DNA of 20,620 bases from Anaerolineae bacterium (GTDB lineage Bacteria > Chloroflexota > Anaerolineae > JAFGEY01). This document shows, piece after piece, positions 2,221 to 13,045 of this stretch. Position 1 is the stretch's first letter. Each line of letters starts with the position of its first letter. A program made the position numbers and the translations under genes. The notes under the pieces are model-generated. The model saw only the letters and a program-made list of their open reading frames with translations, was not told the DNA's origin and did not search any database. The DNA is taken from assembly GCA_016929205.1 (NCBI GenBank), contig JAFGJF010000133.1:1-20620 (forward strand), given 5' to 3'.

Positions 2221-5200
2221 TTAATCCGGGGTTGGAGGCGGAAGCAGGTCCATAATTCTGTCAAACTCAAAATCGCTCACCAACTGGGCCATGATCTCTG
2301 CCTGGGTCGGATAGTCAGGCCGAATCTGCTCGATCAGAGCCATCATCTCGGTCAAATCGCCCATGATTGCCGCCTGGCGCATGTGCTTTTGCCAGATTGC
2401 AGTAAAGCTGTCCAGTGAAAGCGCCTGGATCAAGTGTTGCTGGCCTTGCACTGTCTCCTCGTACGCAAACTGTACACCAAGGTACTTGGTTAATAACTCG
2501 AAAAGGCTTTGAGGTTTAAAAGGCTTGCTCAAAAAATCATCACACCCGGTCGAAAGCATAACGGCCCGTTCCGCATTGAAACGGCTGGCCGTCAAAGCAA
2601 TGATCACGGGTGCTTGATCAAGCTGCGCCTTGATGCGGCGAGCTGCATCGTAACCATCCATCGCGAGCATCCGAATATCCATACAAACCAGGTGTGGGCG
2701 CCAAGCCAGTGTCAGGTCAATCGCCGCCTGCTCGTTTTCCGCCTCCCGCACATGAAACCCCAATGGTTCGAGCAGCTTGACGATCAGACGACGATCGCTC
2801 CATCGATCGTCAACGACCAAGATCCGGTAATGGGGCTGTTCGGGCACCAACCCGATCACTCTGCGTTCGGATTCAGCAGAGCGTATATCCTCGGCGCTGA
2901 CGACAGCAATCGGAGTGACGAACTCAAAACAGGTGCCATGCCCTACCTGGCTGCGCACACCAAGATCTGCACCCATCAGTTGGGCAAACCGCCGGCTGAT
3001 CGTCATTCCCAGGCCCGTCCCTTGCTGAGATTGCCGGCCAGTCGATGTCTGTACAAAAGCGTCAAAAACACGATCCAGTTCATCGGCAGCGATGCCAGGG
3101 CCGGTGTCGGAAACAGAAAATACGAGCGTCGAAACCAAAGTGGATGCATCTGCAAGGACGGGTGGCAATGGCACGTTTTCGTTCTGAACCTTTACGCTTA
3201 CCTTAATGCCACCTTGATCCGTAAACTTGGATGCATTGCCCAACAAGTTGATCAGCACCTGGCGCAATTTGACCTCATCGGTGCGAATGTATTGCGGCAC
3301 ATCGGAAGCACGTTCGAACTCGAGTAACAAACCTTTTTCAATTACACTCTGATAAAACATACTCTCCAGATCGTCCAGCAGGCTATAGAGATCGAAATTG
3401 CTTGTATCGAGCGTTACACGTCCTGCCTCAATCTTGGACATCTCGAGCACTTGATTGATGAGCGACAACAAGTGTTCCCCACTTCTGTTTATGATTTCGA
3501 CATTCTCTCGCTGGTGAACGGGCAAGGCGGCGTCAAGCTGCAGCATCTGGCTAAAGCCGAGGATGGCGCTGAGCGGTGTGCGTAGCTCGTGGCTCATATG
3601 CGCCAGGAAAGCGCTTTTGGCCCTGTTGGCAGTCTCGGCCAGGCGTCGCGCCTGCTCTGCCGCTTCTTTGGCCTGCTGCAGGGCATCTTGCGCACGCATT
3701 CGTTCGGCGATTTCTTGCCTCAGCCGTTCGTTCACCAGCATCGTACTGATCTGTTCTCCCATCCACCTGTACACTTGGCCATCTCGCGACCCGGCTTCAA
3801 ACAAGGCAAACCCAAGTTGTTGCTGTCGAAAGTGGAGAGGGATAGCAGCCAGTATTTGGGGATCATCCAGGGACAACAATCCATCCGGCACCAGTTGATG
3901 TGACAGAAAGGGTTGTCCATCAAGTTCGAGACATTCATGCCCATTAAAGGCGAATATCAATCTGGACCATTTGGGCGCCGGATGCGGGTATGTGTACAGT
4001 TGTGGGTTCAAGTACAAAGCCAGGTAACAACTCGAAATACTCAGCCTCGGTAATGCAGCAACGATCGCCTCCGCCAGATCGGCCAGATCTGATGCCGTCA
4101 TCAGCCCATTGCCCAAATCGTCCCACACATAGTCCTGATCTTCTATTTCCAGTCTGCGGCATAACTCTTGCCTTTGCATTTCTCGGTCAACAACGATACG
4201 CGCCTGCTGCAACAAGATCTGGCTTTGTGAGACCATATGCCCATCATTGGTCAGATGCGGAATGGCATGGCGGTGCAATGCATCCAGCACCTTGTGCACC
4301 AAGCTCACATCCTCCCTCTCTGCCGATATCTCTTGCAGAACATTTTCGACCGCGAACAAGAATCCACGTCGCGATATCGACCTCGCCTCGGACTCGACGA
4401 GCAATTCCGCCAAGAGGGCATCCAGCAACCGTGCCGCCCACCCGGTGGCTTTTCCAGGCAGTTCCGGAGATATGGTCAGTTGAGCCATAGTAGAAAGCAC
4501 TTGGCCACGCCATTCAAACGACGCTATTGTGCGCGGGATAACGTTTCCCGATGACGTTCCCGGCGGCAACACACAACAACTGTCTTGCCTATACAGTGGG
4601 ACGGACAAAGGCACTACATTTTGCATGTCGGCTGGCCAACAACCGCACGAACGGCGTACAATCAGCTCGGCAGGCACAACCATACGGTCCGGAACCGGCT
4701 TGTTTTGCAACAAATCCAACACCATCTCGACAGCCTTATATCCTGATTCGTAGAATGGCTTGCGCATAACAGTGACGGGAGGCATCGTTGCTCTGGCTCT
4801 GAGGTTGTCATTGAACCCAACGACCGCCACGTCGCTCGGCACGTGCATCCCGCGCGCCTGCAACACACTTATCGCCCCACAGGCGTATTCGACCTCGGTT
4901 CCCGCTACGGCCAAATCTGGCCCCGGGCGCACCTTGCGCTCGTCCAGCAGCAGGCGCACCATCTCAGCTCCAGCTTCTGGCCCCCACCTGGTTGGCGGGC
5001 AGACGAGATCGGGATCGAACGGCAAGCCGTACTCGGCCAGAGTCTCAATGTACGCCTGATATCGCTCCTGGCTCTCAAAATGCTCTGCCGGGCCCCGGAT
5101 AAGGGCGATGCGGCGGCAGGCATGCTTTTCAATCAGGTGAGCCAAAAGCACTCGCATCGCTGCCCGCGTATCCGTGAACACGCTGGGAATGCCGTCGACC

Positions 5201-5523
5201 ACTTTCTCATAGTTGACGATGGGAAGAGAACGGTATTGGGCAAAGAACGCATCCATCTCGTCTTGATCGAAATGAGTGCCCAAGCCCGCTCCGCTCCCGG
5301 CCCAAGTCACCAGCCCATCCAACCGCTCGACGCTCGCCAGGCCATAGAGATTATTGGACTGAACGACATCAGGATCGATCGGCCCGCTCAAAAATGAAAT
5401 CAGGTTGACATGATGTTCCCGGGCAGCATCGACTGCACCCAGCCACAAAGTCTGATGTCGATGCATCGTCGAGCCCAATAAGCCGATCGTTGGGCGTGCG
5501 TTTGGTTGTTGGCTATCAGTCAT
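2221..5523 (-). CDS. Soluble LacI-sensor hybrid histidine kinase with receiver domain
   Basis: 1100 residues with no hydrophobic segment long enough to cross the membrane. Residues about 10-295 form a periplasmic-binding-like sensor of the LacI/GalR type (IGLLGS near 13, AVVGFND at 233-239, RRSCGCW at 290-296) but without the DNA-binding helix-turn-helix. Residues about 330-600 are a linker with a GAF-like stretch. A coiled coil (about 600-635) leads into HisKA with SHELRTP and phospho-acceptor His645. The ATPase domain shows the N box (Asn763), DTGPGI (806-811) and GTGLGM (835-840). A receiver domain follows with the acidic pair D905/D906, phospho-acceptor Asp949 and Lys1000, then a 70-residue helical tail. 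It probably senses a cytoplasmic sugar or other small ligand and passes phosphate to an unlinked output protein; the receiver has no DNA-binding domain. A promoter candidate lies at 5557-5585. The ribosome site before the ATG is weak (GAGAG). Confidence 0.93.
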   Translation of the reverse strand: MTDSQQPNARPTIGLLGSTMHRHQTLWLGAVDAAREHHVNLISFLSGPIDPDVVQSNNLYGLASVERLDGLVTWAGSGAGLGTHFDQDEMDAFFAQYRSLPIVNYEKVVDGIPSVFTDTRAAMRVLLAHLIEKHACRRIALIRGPAEHFESQERYQAYIETLAEYGLPFDPDLVCPPTRWGPEAGAEMVRLLLDERKVRPGPDLAVAGTEVEYACGAISVLQARGMHVPSDVAVVGFNDNLRARATMPPVTVMRKPFYESGYKAVEMVLDLLQNKPVPDRMVVPAELIVRRSCGCWPADMQNVVPLSVPLYRQDSCCVLPPGTSSGNVIPRTIASFEWRGQVLSTMAQLTISPELPGKATGWAARLLDALLAELLVESEARSISRRGFLFAVENVLQEISAEREDVSLVHKVLDALHRHAIPHLTNDGHMVSQSQILLQQARIVVDREMQRQELCRRLEIEDQDYVWDDLGNGLMTASDLADLAEAIVAALPRLSISSCYLALYLNPQLYTYPHPAPKWSRLIFAFNGHECLELDGQPFLSHQLVPDGLLSLDDPQILAAIPLHFRQQQLGFALFEAGSRDGQVYRWMGEQISTMLVNERLRQEIAERMRAQDALQQAKEAAEQARRLAETANRAKSAFLAHMSHELRTPLSAILGFSQMLQLDAALPVHQRENVEIINRSGEHLLSLINQVLEMSKIEAGRVTLDTSNFDLYSLLDDLESMFYQSVIEKGLLLEFERASDVPQYIRTDEVKLRQVLINLLGNASKFTDQGGIKVSVKVQNENVPLPPVLADASTLVSTLVFSVSDTGPGIAADELDRVFDAFVQTSTGRQSQQGTGLGMTISRRFAQLMGADLGVRSQVGHGTCFEFVTPIAVVSAEDIRSAESERRVIGLVPEQPHYRILVVDDRWSDRRLIVKLLEPLGFHVREAENEQAAIDLTLAWRPHLVCMDIRMLAMDGYDAARRIKAQLDQAPVIIALTASRFNAERAVMLSTGCDDFLSKPFKPQSLFELLTKYLGVQFAYEETVQGQQHLIQALSLDSFTAIWQKHMRQAAIMGDLTEMMALIEQIRPDYPTQAEIMAQLVSDFEFDRIMDLLPPPTPD

Positions 5524-8751: not shown

Positions 8752-8959
8752 CTAGGTTCTGTTGACGTTTTGGATGACGCTTGGACTGTCATGCCCGAAT
8801 GTCTCTATCGGGCATCCACATATCTCTATCGGGCATCCACACACACAAAAGAAGCTGGATTCCCGCTAAACCCATGCGAGAATGACATACGCTCGCCGGT
8901 ATTCATATCGTGAAAGATGGCAAACTGAGCCGTCTATGTCAAATGTCAACAGAACCTAG
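8752..8959. mobile_element. MITE-like element with 15-bp terminal inverted repeats
   Basis: CTAGGTTCTGTTGAC at 8752-8766 is the exact reverse complement of 8945-8959, bounding 208 bp with no coding capacity. The outermost CTAG is palindromic, so the mobile unit may be GGTTCTGTTGAC...GTCAACAGAACC flanked by a TA or CTAG target duplication, as for IS630- or IS5-type elements. Inside are a perfect 8-bp hairpin ATGCCCGA/TCGGGCAT (8791-8814), a 21-bp tandem duplication, and an imperfect hairpin ATTCCCGC/GCGAGAAT. The right end lies inside the 3' end of the minus-strand kinase gene. Without a second copy in view, mobility is inferred from structure. Confidence 0.65.
8800..8841 (+). repeat. 21-bp tandem duplication inside the MITE-like element
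   Basis: Two adjacent 21-bp units (8800-8820 and 8821-8841) differ at one position; 19 bp are identical (TCTCTATCGGGCATCCACA). Each carries the TCGGGCAT arm that can pair with ATGCCCGA at 8791-8798, so two alternative hairpins are possible. Confidence 0.8.
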
Positions 8960-9934
8960 CCCAGATAGCTCTTTGAGCAACTGGCTGCGCGCCCAGTTCT
9001 CCTGATCCTGGGTTTCGTATTGCCGGTAGGCGCACTCGATGACCATGATCAGGTACAGGTAAATGTTGTACAGCGTGCGCCGGCAGATCTGCTCGTTGGT
9101 GACGAGCATCTGTCCGCCATATCCTTCGGCGTACGCGCTGTGCGGGTCGCGGAACCCAAACAAACATTCCATCAACGGGTCCCCCCACAGGGCACGTTCA
9201 AAATCGACGACGCCGTTGATGCGCTTGGTTGTGGGATCGACAAAAATGTTGCCATCCCACAAGTCCCAGTGCACGAGTTGTGGGACAACAATTTCATCCA
9301 GAACATGATAAAATGACACCAGCCTGTCTTGCAGCTCATCGTAGGGCACAGAAAGGTCGACACCCATCTCGATGCCGTCAGCCAACACGCCGGACAGCAT
9401 CGCACCAAACGCCTCGCGCCAGGAGGAAAAAAGATCGTCGGGTTGTGTGGGATGCTCAACATCCGCATAGTACCCAAAATGCGAACCCCTGACGGCATTG
9501 ATTTGCCGCGTCAGCTGCCCGGCCTCCCGGTCGATCGTCTGCTGTTCGGCGTCGGTCAGATCTTTACGCAGCTTGTTCAGCGGAGTGCCGGGGATGAAAG
9601 CCATGCCGTAAAAATCGTTGTCGATGATCTGCCGCGAGGGATCATAAAAGTAAATCTCGGGAACGGGCAGGTCTGTCTGCGCGCCAACCAGGCGCATCAC
9701 CTCAACCTCGGCTTGCATAATGTTCTTTTCATAACGCATCACACGTACATCATCTGCTGGCGCAACCTTGAGGACACAGTTGAGGCCATCATCCAGTTCG
9801 ACCCGGAAAGCGGCATTGAAGAGACCGTCTGTCAGTTCTTCAAACGAATCGATGGTGCGTTCACAACCAAAATGATGGCGGACGATGTCTTGAATAGCTT
9901 CCGACGAAATAGTTGTTTTAGAAAGGCTGTACAT
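8939..9934 (-). CDS. Aminoglycoside phosphotransferase (APH)-family kinase
   Basis: 331 residues with the APH/choline-kinase-like fold: a likely ATP-binding Lys56 (CVLKVAP), the catalytic loop VHWDLWDGNIF (221-231; Asp224, Asn229) and metal-binding Asp244 (VVDFERALWGDP). The family phosphorylates small molecules such as aminoglycosides, choline, homoserine or sugars; no subfamily could be fixed and there is no reason to call it a resistance gene. The ATG at 9932-9934 has AAGGAG 12 nt upstream, which is long; the longer frame to 10024 is not favoured. The last five residues (GSVDI) and the stop codon come from the MITE-like element. Reading across the reconstructed empty site gives a tail DTCR and stop, so the insertion changed little. 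It lies 111 bp downstream of the AraC-type regulator on the same strand. Confidence 0.85.
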   Translation of the reverse strand: MYSLSKTTISSEAIQDIVRHHFGCERTIDSFEELTDGLFNAAFRVELDDGLNCVLKVAPADDVRVMRYEKNIMQAEVEVMRLVGAQTDLPVPEIYFYDPSRQIIDNDFYGMAFIPGTPLNKLRKDLTDAEQQTIDREAGQLTRQINAVRGSHFGYYADVEHPTQPDDLFSSWREAFGAMLSGVLADGIEMGVDLSVPYDELQDRLVSFYHVLDEIVVPQLVHWDLWDGNIFVDPTTKRINGVVDFERALWGDPLMECLFGFRDPHSAYAEGYGGQMLVTNEQICRRTLYNIYLYLIMVIECAYRQYETQDQENWARSQLLKELSGLGSVDI

Positions 9935-10045
9935 CCGCAGTCTATTCTCCTTGTCCCGGATTTTTTGGGCTGCGATCCTACTCGGTGCGTCCGGCGCTGT
10001 GCTCGATCTGGCTGGAGATCGCATTCCAACCCGGCAACAAAAACG

Positions 10046-11065
10046 CTATCGATTCTGGACAGCCGTGGGCGTCGATCCTGTCCATCGCTTGAACGCGTGG
10101 TTGAAAGCGCTTTGCTCTGAGAATCCCAGGAGAAAAGCGAGGTCACAGATCGCCACGTCACCTTTTTCCAGGTAACCAAACGCGATCTCTTTTCTCACCT
10201 CGTCAAGCAGTGCGCGGTAGGTGACGCCCTCTTGTTTCAACTTGTTTTGCAGATGCCGCGTGCTAAGCGCCTGGTCGTGCGAAATCGCGCCGATGGTTGG
10301 TTTTTCTCCCCGCAATAACATCTTGGCAATCAGACGTGTGACCTTGTCCGCCCAACTGTCCGGTGCATACAACCGAACGAACTGCTCTTGCGCAAATTGC
10401 TCCAGTCTTTCCAAGAGCGCGGGGTTGGCGAAAAAGATGGTCAGATCCAGATCGATACGCCTGAACACCAACTCGTTCCGCCGCTGTTCAAAGACCAGCG
10501 GAGTGCAAAATATACGGCGATGCTCCGTGATATCTGGCGGTCGCGGGTGGCTGAAACGGATTTCCGAAAACCTTATCTGATTGTCCGTCAAACCACGCAA
10601 CGTAAAAACGAGCCCGCCCAGGACAGCCTCTGCGTAATGGCGCTCGAGTGCGAGATGGATGTGTGCTGGTTCCAATGTATAGTAGGCTTTATCCCCCTGC
10701 CGGCGCAGTTCGAGACGGACACAATCCGTCGCCAGACCGTGATAGCGTGCCAGTTTTTGCATCGCATCCCCCACAGTCGGACAGTTCGCTATTACAGCAG
10801 ACAACACATCGCCCCCTCCGAAAAGCGAACGGCGCGACCATTCAGCAAAATGCAGGCCAAAGTCTGGATCGTCCGCCCTGAGCGCAATTTTGCTCCCCAG
10901 GGCGTTAAAGCACGAAAAGGACAGCCTTGATTCTACATCGTTCAGCCGACCGGTATCCACACCAAGCGAATCGCAAAGCGCTTCGGGATCGATGCCGATG
11001 CTGGAAGCATACTTGAGCAGCACGCGTACCAGGCCCGTCGAAACGGTTGCATAAGACTTTTCCAT
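10046..11065 (-). CDS. AraC-family transcriptional regulator with AraC-type N-terminal ligand domain
   Basis: 339 residues. Residues about 20-200 match the N-terminal sensing domain of OruR/ArgR-like AraC regulators (LLKYASSIGIDPEAL, then DPDFGLHFAE). The C-terminal 90 residues carry the double helix-turn-helix, with the second helix pair and signature at IAFGYLEKGDVAICDLAFLLGF and SEQSAFNHAFKRWTG. It probably binds direct or inverted repeats near its target promoters in response to a small ligand. The ATG at 11063-11065 is preferred to the adjacent GTG (11066-11068), with AAGG 9 nt upstream. It is divergent from the MerB-like selenoprotein gene; the 118-bp gap holds repeats that are plausible binding sites. 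It may also control the APH-family kinase gene behind it. Confidence 0.9.
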   Translation of the reverse strand: MEKSYATVSTGLVRVLLKYASSIGIDPEALCDSLGVDTGRLNDVESRLSFSCFNALGSKIALRADDPDFGLHFAEWSRRSLFGGGDVLSAVIANCPTVGDAMQKLARYHGLATDCVRLELRRQGDKAYYTLEPAHIHLALERHYAEAVLGGLVFTLRGLTDNQIRFSEIRFSHPRPPDITEHRRIFCTPLVFEQRRNELVFRRIDLDLTIFFANPALLERLEQFAQEQFVRLYAPDSWADKVTRLIAKMLLRGEKPTIGAISHDQALSTRHLQNKLKQEGVTYRALLDEVRKEIAFGYLEKGDVAICDLAFLLGFSEQSAFNHAFKRWTGSTPTAVQNR

Positions 11066-11104
11066 CACCCACGACCTTGATTTCGCAAAAAATCAAACTT
11101 TATG

Positions 11105-11148: not shown

Positions 11149-11184
11149 TTGACGACAAACCATTGACGAGAGGAAATTTGACGA
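11149..11184 (+). repeat. Three TTGACGA direct repeats, 14-15 bp apart
   Basis: TTGACGA occurs at 11149-11155, 11163-11169 and 11178-11184; the first two copies extend to CATTGACGA. The last copy runs into the ATG, and the repeats bracket the GAGAGG ribosome site. AraC-type proteins commonly bind direct repeats, so the adjacent regulator is the obvious candidate binder; this is inference. Confidence 0.5.
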
Positions 11185-11912
11185 TGAATAACAGTTTGCT
11201 GTTGGGGATATGGCGTTACATGGTGCCCATTCCCCGCCCGGTATGGCAGAGCCAGGTCCGTGCGGACGCCGACCTTGGGTTTATGTCGGAAGCACATCAC
11301 CGGGTGCGCAATTTTGTGGTCGAGGAACTGCCGCGCGTGGGCCAACCGCTATCGCCCGAACAGATCGCCCGGGCTCTAGACCTGCCCCTGGCGCGGACGA
11401 TCGACATCCTCGACGATTTGGAACAGCATATGGCCTTTCTGTTCAGAAACGATGGTCGAGCGGTGACGTGGGCCTACCCGGTGACGGCCGAACCGACGCC
11501 GCACCACGTGACCTTTGACACGGGGGAGCAGATCTATGCCGCTTGAGCGATCGACGCGATCGCGGTGCCCTTCGTGCAAGGGCATTTACGGAATGAAAAG
11601 CTCTCGTGTACCATCGAGACCGAGTGTGGGCACTGCCGCCAGCCGCTTCACATCGAGATCGACAGCGACCTGAACTATCGCGTCCTGGAAGCCGGCGCCA
11701 AGCCGTTGATTCACGTACCGATGGCGGATCCGAAAAAACTGGATGCCCCAAGCATCATCGACGGCTTTTGAAAGAAATCCATTTTCTTCTGGTCAGAAGA
11801 ACATGCCAGGCAATACCGGCGCAGCGCCAACGGAGAACGCGGCCTTTATATGACCCTATCCCAAAGCGTGTATATCACACCCAGGATCCAGGGTCCGCTA
11901 TTTGGCTTTTAG
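11184..11912 (+). CDS. MerB-like (organomercurial lyase family) protein with two predicted selenocysteines
   Basis: Read through two in-frame TGAs (11544-11546 and 11769-11771), the frame encodes 242 residues ending TAG. Residues about 35-100 form the MerB winged-helix region (PLSPEQIARALDLPLARTIDIL). The first TGA (residue 121) lies in FDTGEQIYAA-U-AID, matching the VYAWC96ALD99 block of classical MerB, with Asp124 at the Asp99 position. The second (residue 196) lies in IIDGF-U-KKSIFFWSEEHA, matching FC159CHVHFF; the distance to FF is identical. MerB breaks C-Hg bonds with C96, D99 and C159, so both thiols would become selenols. C148 and C151 (CGHC) are an extra Cys pair. SECIS-like hairpins follow both TGAs. 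Start: ATG with GAGAGG 10 nt upstream. The gene is divergent from araC and convergent with the flavodoxin-like gene. No sel genes are in view. The alternative is a gene broken by two stops, which by chance would rarely hit both catalytic codons. Confidence 0.85.
11566..11584 (+). promoter_or_regulatory. Candidate bacterial SECIS for Sec121
   Basis: TGCCCTT/AAGGGCA forms a perfect 7-bp stem, extendable by G-U pairs, closed by the 5-nt loop CGTGC. The loop starts 26 nt after the TGA and has G at its second position followed by U. This agrees with the general bacterial SECIS pattern (short upper stem, small loop with an early G, roughly 16-37 nt from the UGA). A competing 7-bp hairpin, GCGATCG-ACG-CGATCGC (11547-11563), starts right after the TGA but has its loop too close for SelB use. 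Confidence 0.6.
11784..11801 (+). promoter_or_regulatory. Candidate bacterial SECIS for Sec196
   Basis: TTCTTCT/AGAAGAA forms a perfect 7-bp stem closed by the tetraloop GGTC, which starts 19 nt after the TGA. The GGUC loop resembles the SelB-recognised apical loop of E. coli fdhF. The hairpin sits within the codons for FFWSEE, so it is under both protein and RNA constraint. Confidence 0.72.
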
Positions 11913-11914
11913 GA

Positions 11915-12451
11915 TCAAGCGCTGACGTCCAGCAGCCTGGGTCGTAACTGCTCGGTCCAGGCACGGATCGCCTCCCAATCGCGGTGGTCCGGCGTACTTT
12001 CAGCCATCGCCTTGACAGGAATTTTCAAAAGCGGAAACAGGTGTTTAAATTCCGGTGTATCACCCAACACCGCACCGCCAAAGAGTCCTTCGTCCACGGG
12101 CTTGACCCCTGGCGCGGCTTTGCGCAAGGGGTTAAGGTATGCTGCCGCTGTACGGCGGTTTTCCTCCGTGTCCTCGCTCATGGTCAAACACACACAAAAA
12201 TAGGCCACCGGCACCTGTTCCAGCGCCCGGCGATGGCGACTGACAAAGCGGCGGATCTCGCCCGGCACCCTCCCGGCGTGCACCGACGTGCCCACGAGCA
12301 CCGCCCGGTAAGGACTGACATCCTGGACTTGTTTTGCACGGCAGACGTCGACTCTTGTGTCCGCATCGCGCAAAGCATCGCCCATCGCCTCGGCTACCCC
12401 ACGCGTAGCGCCGGTCCAGGTCGCGTAAACGATCAGGATTTCATTGCTCAT
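11915..12451 (-). CDS. Flavodoxin-domain protein (HemG-like)
   Basis: 178 residues with a flavodoxin fold. The N-terminal strand ends in the FMN-phosphate loop [16 protein letters not shown] (9-24). [20 protein letters not shown] follows, as in the HemG/protoporphyrinogen-dehydrogenase-like group. Such proteins bind FMN and transfer electrons or oxidise small substrates. There is no signal peptide or membrane segment. The ATG at 12449-12451 was chosen over a longer frame to 12508 because AAAGGA lies 7 nt upstream and the fold then starts at residue 4. The TGA stop is only 2 bp from the end of the convergent MerB-like gene, so their transcripts must overlap. A functional link between the two is possible but not shown, and no heme genes are nearby. 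Confidence 0.87.
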
Positions 12452-13045
12452 TACTCTATCCTTTCCAAAAACCGTATCTGCGCTCTTGGCATCGAGCACG
12501 AACATCACCCGGTGTTCCCGTTCCGGTCAATCGACAAACGGCTGGGCGAAACGTTTTGCGATTCGCCTCTTCGGGCATCAAGCGGACACCCTCACAGCCG
12601 CCCTTGACAATCGTCCCCAGGTACGGGGACCCCAGCCGCGCGGCAAACCATCAAAAACAGTCAATCGAGACGGCGGTACGACGCGCACACCAGGAGGAGG
12701 AGCCAGCTCCCGAGCATATTGAACCCAATCTGGTTCATATACGTCAAGTGTTCTTGTACTGTTTCAAAGGGCAGCGACCATCGGGATCGAACAAAGCAAC
12801 GTATTTTATCATGTGACCGGCCAGTGAACAAAAGGCTGCCTTAACGGTAGGGTTTTGTTAAAATTGCGCGTTGCCGGGGATAGACAGACATGGTATAATG
12901 CCTTACGAGTCGCACATGGCCTAAAGCGGCGTCACCCGCGAACAAGACATAGCCAACTATCTTACCAGCCGACGCACATGATGCCATCTGTCACCGAGAT
13001 CGTGCCCTGAATCGTGTTCGATCCACACAAAAAAAGGAGATAACC
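12452..13045. other. Gene-free stretch with promoter and long leader
   Basis: No credible coding frame was found on either strand; several short minus-strand fragments read like degraded coding sequence but have stops in every frame. A 6-bp hairpin GTCCCC/GGGGAC (12613-12630) has no T-run. A promoter lies at 12871-12899. It is followed by about 140 nt of leader ending in an excellent AAGGAGAT ribosome site 5 nt before the ATG at 13046. The leader has small potential stems but no riboswitch class that I recognise, and no tRNA was seen. Confidence 0.6.
12871..12899 (+). promoter_or_regulatory. Extended -10 promoter for the 4Fe-4S membrane protein
   Basis: TTGCCG (12871-12876), a 17-bp spacer, then TGG-TATAAT (12891-12899) with a perfect -10 and TG extension. 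Transcription would start near 12906, giving a leader of about 140 nt. Confidence 0.7.

Follow-up and report, generated by a model that had tools for sequence, protein, structure and literature searches.

A MerB-like gene family with TGA at both catalytic cysteine codons: candidate two-selenocysteine enzymes acting on organometals

The gene and its MerB-like product

The window analysed here, a stretch of 20,620 nucleotides from an Anaerolineae bacterium (JAFGJF010000133.1), carries at 11184..11912 (+) a MerB-like gene of 242 codons plus a TAG stop. The frame opens with an ATG downstream of GAGAGGA (11168..11174, +), which we read from the sequence as a probable ribosome-binding site, and its only in-frame TGA codons are codon 121 (11544..11546, +) and codon 196 (11769..11771, +). 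An earlier note on this DNA had described a single frame of this kind, and translation of 11184-11912 reproduced it. That note had also argued that TGA is not generally a sense codon here, since it ends other genes, and this is borne out: TGA is the final codon of 7 of the 15 window open reading frames (ORFs) checked, the three named earlier included, and of 36 of 80 genes of the family described below. On the sequence evidence that follows, the gene almost certainly encodes a protein with two predicted selenocysteines (Sec).

The Pfam MerB model (PF03243) matches residues 101-229 of the read-through product, spanning both TGAs, with E 4.7e-18 and 65.8 bits (cut-off 27). The curated NCBIfam MerB cut-offs are missed (52.9 vs 193 bits and 49.4 vs 200 bits), and the MerB fold is found in the predicted structure model of the protein. 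In MerB, Cys96, Asp99 and Cys159 hold mercury, according to the portion of PMC4525700 available to us. In phmmer alignments against MerB in the PDB (1s6l, 3f2g; MerB residues numbered by counting along the printed alignment), codon 121 falls on Cys96, D124 (11553..11555, +) on Asp99 and codon 196 on Cys159, whilst FF stands five residues past codon 196 and past Cys159 alike. The earlier placing of the TGAs at both catalytic cysteines, with Asp at +3 and the FF spacing, agrees with these alignments. Of the MerB triad Cys96/Asp99/Cys159, the window gene thus retains the Asp and has TGA at both cysteine codons. Moreover, Asp124 is invariant in a 65-row protein alignment of the family. The same alignment shows a conserved extra cysteine pair, C148-x-x-C151 (11625..11636, +), of which C148 is invariant and C151 nearly so; the phmmer alignment sets C148 against the cysteine at MerB position 117.

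Conservation of the TGA codons and of two hairpins

To place the gene in a family, GTDB genomes were scanned with the read-through protein, giving 95 encoded relatives, of which the best 80 are used for DNA counts. Both sites are TGA in 78 of these loci and TGC/TGA in two (L057, L079); TAA or TAG occurs at the sites in none. The 80 loci and the window (81 DNA sequences) all have TGA at codon 196, and apart from the two sites their aligned codons hold no stop. Readable final stops of the family genes are TGA in 36, TAG in 22 and TAA in 22. Two predicted catalytic pairings, Sec/Sec (U/U) and Cys/Sec (C/U), were therefore found, at 78 and 2 of 80, and Cys/Cys was not seen among 120 listed protein homologues (135 were found). 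In a quick tree of 95 rows the Cys121 members lie amid U/U members, L079 next to L076 (support 100) and L057 within a four-row clade (support 100). Position 121 thus appears, from sequence, to have changed to Cys several times within the family, and, since none of the 81 sequences departs from TGA at codon 196, Sec196 seems to be the residue least given up.

By record title, the hosts are Anaerolineae and other Chloroflexi, Deltaproteobacteria, Desulfobacterales, Acidobacteria, Nitrospirae, Binatia, Rokuibacteriota, KSB1, Spirochaetes and others; nearly all relatives come from metagenome bins and so single host assignments may be wrong. Among genomes sampled from the class of G045, 8 of 150 hold a two-TGA relative, and a further putative match with one TGA is in G152; the figures are 10 of 147 for the class of G038 and 3 of 199 for the phylum of G047, where one more has one TGA and is cut at the contig side. 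The farthest relatives read, at ~31-36% identity to the window protein, are still TGA/TGA; of the ten stretches examined, L091 and L096 showed no match at 1e-3 and were left out.

Public protein records present the family differently. Most of the 120 listed homologues (85) break off just short of codon 121, 25 carry Trp at each of the two sites, four have Cys at 121 and end just before 196, two have Trp at 121 and likewise end before 196, and four are single other cases. The simplest reading of these records is truncation at TGA or a gene call made with TGA as Trp. Therefore, merB surveys built on gene calls would probably overlook the family, as its records are mostly truncated at codon 120 or carry Trp/Trp.

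Each TGA is followed by a predicted Sec insertion sequence (SECIS) hairpin. Across the 81 sequences, the aligned codons of conserved residues are mostly mixed. Use of one codon in at least 93% of rows was found in 9 of 60 conserved degenerate columns, and all nine lie in two places, which were singled out after inspection: codons 129-133, CCC TTC GTG CAA GGG, and codons 201-206, TTC TTC TGG TCA GAA GAA. Among rows with the residue unchanged, these codons are used in 93-100%, and in 94-100% at codons 129-133. Hairpin 1 (GCCCTT-CGTGC-AAGGGC; 11567..11583, +) starts 21 bases past its TGA and is predicted from codon and pair conservation and from the window fold, whilst hairpin 2 (TTCTTCT-GGTC-AGAAGAA; 11784..11801, +) starts 12 bases past its TGA and is predicted from codon and pair conservation. 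Base pairs were counted by script on the family DNA. The six core pairs of hairpin 1 are retained in 69-79 of the 79 rows with TGA at that site, G-C, T-A and C-G all occur at positions 24-40, and conservation of its outer pairs was not found in these rows. All seven pairs of hairpin 2 are retained in 81 of 81 sequences, with the loop GGTC; a GGUC loop lies at a similar distance in the E. coli fdhF element. In two C/U sequences outside the family (L095, L097) the loop-closing T-A has become C-G, a compensating change. Of the two members with TGC at site 1, L079 has lost the frozen codons there and L057 has retained them. Folding of hairpin 1 in the window gave a z of -3.1, with 2 of 200 shuffles equally good. 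SECIS-like hairpins are thus found at both sites by conservation, and folding energy is remarkable at site 1 only.

The search for genes of Sec synthesis and insertion covered the hosts of 50 of the 80 loci (48 U/U, 2 C/U). SelA passes its cut-off in 49 of these genomes, SelB in 45 and SelD in 49, and most of the SelD matches that do so carry one TGA themselves. A tRNA-Sec of at least 61 bits was found in 42 of the 50, with up to 67 candidates scored per genome; only such scores were counted because the Rfam cut-off was also passed by 5 of 14 controls. A chromosome record, CP070746.1 (G038), holds selA, selB, selD and tRNA-Sec, and CP070639.1 (G045) holds selA, selB and tRNA-Sec with a partial selD. 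SelA is present in all 8 two-TGA carriers of the class of G045. This co-occurrence is a consistency check, not proof.

Comparison with known proteins and the genomic setting

The window family resembles MerB, the organomercurial (alkylmercury) lyase (PF03243, NF009710, NF033555), in its modelled fold, Pfam domain and catalytic positions, and differs in the TGA at both cysteine codons, a longer N-terminus, the sub-cut-off NCBIfam scores, the lack of mer genes among the scanned window ORFs and hosts that mostly lack MerA. Within the part of a 2026 review available to us (PMC13188914), which counts 119 selenoprotein families and subfamilies, the sole MerB-like entry of Table 1 is SaoL, the organometallic lyase of the SAO system (NF040728), with one Sec and the motif CU. 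SaoL likewise belongs to the MerB-like selenoproteins and carries its Sec where MerB has Cys159. We identified one by the NCBIfam cut-off (L092, 165.2 vs 140 bits), reading SCU-NVMNFF, with TGA at the Cys159 position, Cys preceding the Sec and Cys at the Cys96 position, whereas the window gene has TGA at both. SaoL, which keeps its Cys at the Cys96 position, is therefore C/U and the window family U/U. The window protein reads AAU-AID and GFU-KKS, without the CU motif, and scores 52.3 bits against the SaoL model (cut-off 140); other two-TGA rows score 56.1 (L073), 40.9 (L098) and 48.2 bits (L099). By score and motif, the window gene was ruled out as a SaoL. No ABC transporter or thioredoxin-like gene of the kind that neighbours SAO genes was found by Pfam in 13 window ORFs, the Sao profiles not being applied. 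The SaoL gene lies at L092:564-1205 (-), and the 159 positions of the NF040728 model stop one residue before its TGA at 166, so that everything from the Sec onward falls outside the model.

A second MerB-like C/U group of two members was observed at L095:237-914 (-) and L097:579-1259 (+). As in the window gene, TGA stands at the Cys159 position, and after it comes a hairpin whose loop is GGTC; the difference lies in a Cys at the Cys96 position. Both are below the SaoL cut-off (47.8 and 52.6 bits). The positions of SaoL, L095, L097, MerB and the protein record P0042 in the quick tree are unsure because of long branches. MbdU (NF045648), listed in the available part of PMC13188914 among double-Sec bacterial proteins and named metal-binding, shares with the window protein two predicted Sec in one bacterial chain; even with E allowed up to 1, the window protein did not match that model.

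The earlier note knew of no characterised two-Sec MerB, and we found no mention of one in the searched literature, which was available in part: PMC13188914, PMC2398784, PMC12013277, PMC5029168, PMC9312934, PMC4525700, PMC8261052 and PMC5039623. Haft and colleagues (2023, 2025), cited in PMC13188914 for SaoL and MbdU, fall outside this coverage.

In the window, an AraC-type regulator (Arabinose_bd and HTH_18 by Pfam; 10046..11068, -), diverges from the gene at a distance of ~115 bases, and a flavodoxin-domain protein (Flavodoxin_5 by Pfam; 11915..12508, -) converges on it from 2 bases past its end. Next to the regulator is an APH/fructosamine-kinase-like gene (8939-10024, -); the two share a frame split by TAG, which is open for 368 codons beyond that TAG. 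Farther off, at 2221-5523 (-), lies a hybrid histidine kinase with an N-terminal periplasmic-binding-protein-like domain of LacI type.

Neighbours across the family were compared by clustering 825 simple ORFs from the 81 sequences, which are of uneven length. Neither a mer operon in the stretches around the family genes nor a thioredoxin-type gene as a recurrent neighbour was seen. Directly upstream and on the same strand is a MerR-like regulator in six loci (L018, L024, L028, L029, L035, L038) and a MarR-like regulator in seven (L037, L046, L063, L066, L068, L070, L080), with Pfam run on one of each. Mercury-sensing MerR has three spaced cysteines. The MerR-like regulators here have at most two and thus yield no clue to the substrate, since the spaced sensor cysteines are absent. 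Plasmid carriage was considered and rejected: all 24 plasmid records are below 60% identity, and the 12 listed, all MerB-type matches, do not exceed 30%. The best-ranked of these matches, on a Simkania negevensis plasmid (29.9% identity), is a MerA-annotated protein with a C-terminal MerB-like part.

Possible function and competing explanations

The earlier note had proposed a two-Sec lyase-like enzyme, and the catalytic alignment, family-wide TGA, two hairpins, Sec machinery of the relatives and MerB fold all support it. We favour, with a probability of about 0.62, a two-Sec MerB-family enzyme likely to break the bond between carbon and metal in soft organometals, for instance methylmercury. 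Sequence alone could hardly make the two-Sec prediction stronger. MerB works by two chalcogen ligands and a proton-delivering Asp, and lyase chemistry is therefore the natural inference; by this analogy, lyase-type action on an organometal is probable. SelB and tRNA-Sec would insert Sec at codons 121 and 196, and the metal of an organometal R-M would be bound by the two selenolates. Asp124 would then hand a proton to the carbon and R-H would depart, leaving M(II) as a bridge between Sec121 and Sec196, from which thiols of the cell or sulfide would later remove it.

That methylmercury is the natural substrate has, in our view, slightly less than an even chance. HgcA, the mercury-methylating protein, is over cut-off in 16 of the 50 hosts; in the class of G038 it occurs in 8 of 10 two-TGA carriers vs 54 of 137 others (Fisher two-sided p 0.018), in a test that is post hoc and ignores kinship. 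This co-occurrence points weakly to methylmercury. MerA is over cut-off in only 2 of the 50 hosts, making it improbable as the usual next step; sub-cut-off matches at 1e-100 in 35 more (up to 25 candidates scored per genome) probably belong to other flavoprotein disulfide reductases. The portion of PMC8261052 available to us also reports ordinary MerB in the absence of MerA.

Several observations weigh against our interpretation. A bis-selenolate would grip Hg(II) very tightly, so that turnover requires a putative acceptor. In the window, hairpin 2 has a z of only -1.0 and is absent from the best 45-base fold, and no Rfam SECIS family matched. The same groups have SelA at a high base rate (131 of 150 genomes in the class of G045; 130 of 199 at 1e-60 in the phylum of G047), and SelA alone therefore discriminates weakly. 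One host genome (G011) has neither SelA nor SelB over cut-off, five in all lack SelB over cut-off, one (G029) lacks SelD over cut-off, a strong tRNA-Sec was not found in 8 of 50, and the carrier G444 has no SelA at 1e-60; the genomes short of Sec genes are mostly draft bins. No conserved operon was seen in the stretches around the family genes, the top partner in the ORF clusters, besides gene pieces and overlapping antisense frames, being an ABC-type ATPase in 9 of 81 sequences. Lastly, among the listed protein homologues, P0021 and P0026 carry Trp at 121 and stop at 195, whilst the two sites read Ser/Cys in P0042 and Gly/Leu in P0011; the Sec pair may have been lost in these proteins, or they may reflect contig ends or errors.

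The strongest competitor, which we hold to be unlikely, is a two-Sec MerB-fold protein that takes another organometal or metalloid as substrate, or is a tight metal trap or carrier instead of a turnover lyase. Selenolates bind Hg(II) more tightly than thiolates do as a matter of general chemistry, which would suit this reading, as would the rarity of MerA in the hosts, the few cysteines of the six neighbouring MerR-like regulators and the unseen mer operon. However, the proton-donating Asp is invariant and would be needless in a simple trap, and the HgcA association, weak as it is, speaks against another substrate. The available part of PMC5039623 gives a high affinity of mercury for biological selenols; strong selenol-mercury binding could speed attack on R-Hg yet slow release.

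Rather improbable is a selenium redox or thiol-exchange enzyme on the MerB scaffold, with an Se-Se or Se-S bridge among 121, 196 and C148-x-x-C151. Its appeal is that PMC13188914, in the part available, regards most uncharacterised prokaryotic selenoproteins as likely redox proteins, and that the extra CxxC is conserved in the main family. However, the second Cys of this motif is absent from the distant two-TGA rows L098-L100, although TGA/Asp/TGA is retained there, and a recurrent thioredoxin-type neighbour is missing from the ORF clusters. We found no evidence favouring trapping or redox over lyase chemistry. Finally, that the TGAs are not Sec is very improbable: the Trp/Trp records most simply reflect an applied TGA=Trp code, and a pseudogene, sequencing error and a TGA=Trp code (or TGA read as Cys) are countered by both codons being common to independent assemblies, TAA and TAG never standing at the sites, TGA serving as final stop, in-frame TGA being confined to the catalytic positions, hairpins frozen at synonymous sites and Sec genes in most hosts, the first, second and third of these leading us to reject the former three.

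Taken together, the two-Sec MerB-family reading, if true, would give the first MerB-type enzyme with its entire catalytic cysteine pair changed to selenium, within the literature searched and as far as it was available. It would allow a direct test of why selenium serves in cutting carbon-metal bonds, and the series C/C (MerB), C/U (SaoL and the second group) and U/U (the window family) makes the role of each catalytic position testable. Tentatively, these proteins may be widespread bis-selenocysteine organomercurial lyases, whose hosts, some of them mercury methylators, would demethylate methylmercury by Sec/Asp/Sec and pass Hg(II) to thiols or sulfide, not MerA. If they act on methylmercury, they add one more enzyme to the mercury cycle, and might explain part of the MerA-independent demethylation in anoxic habitats.
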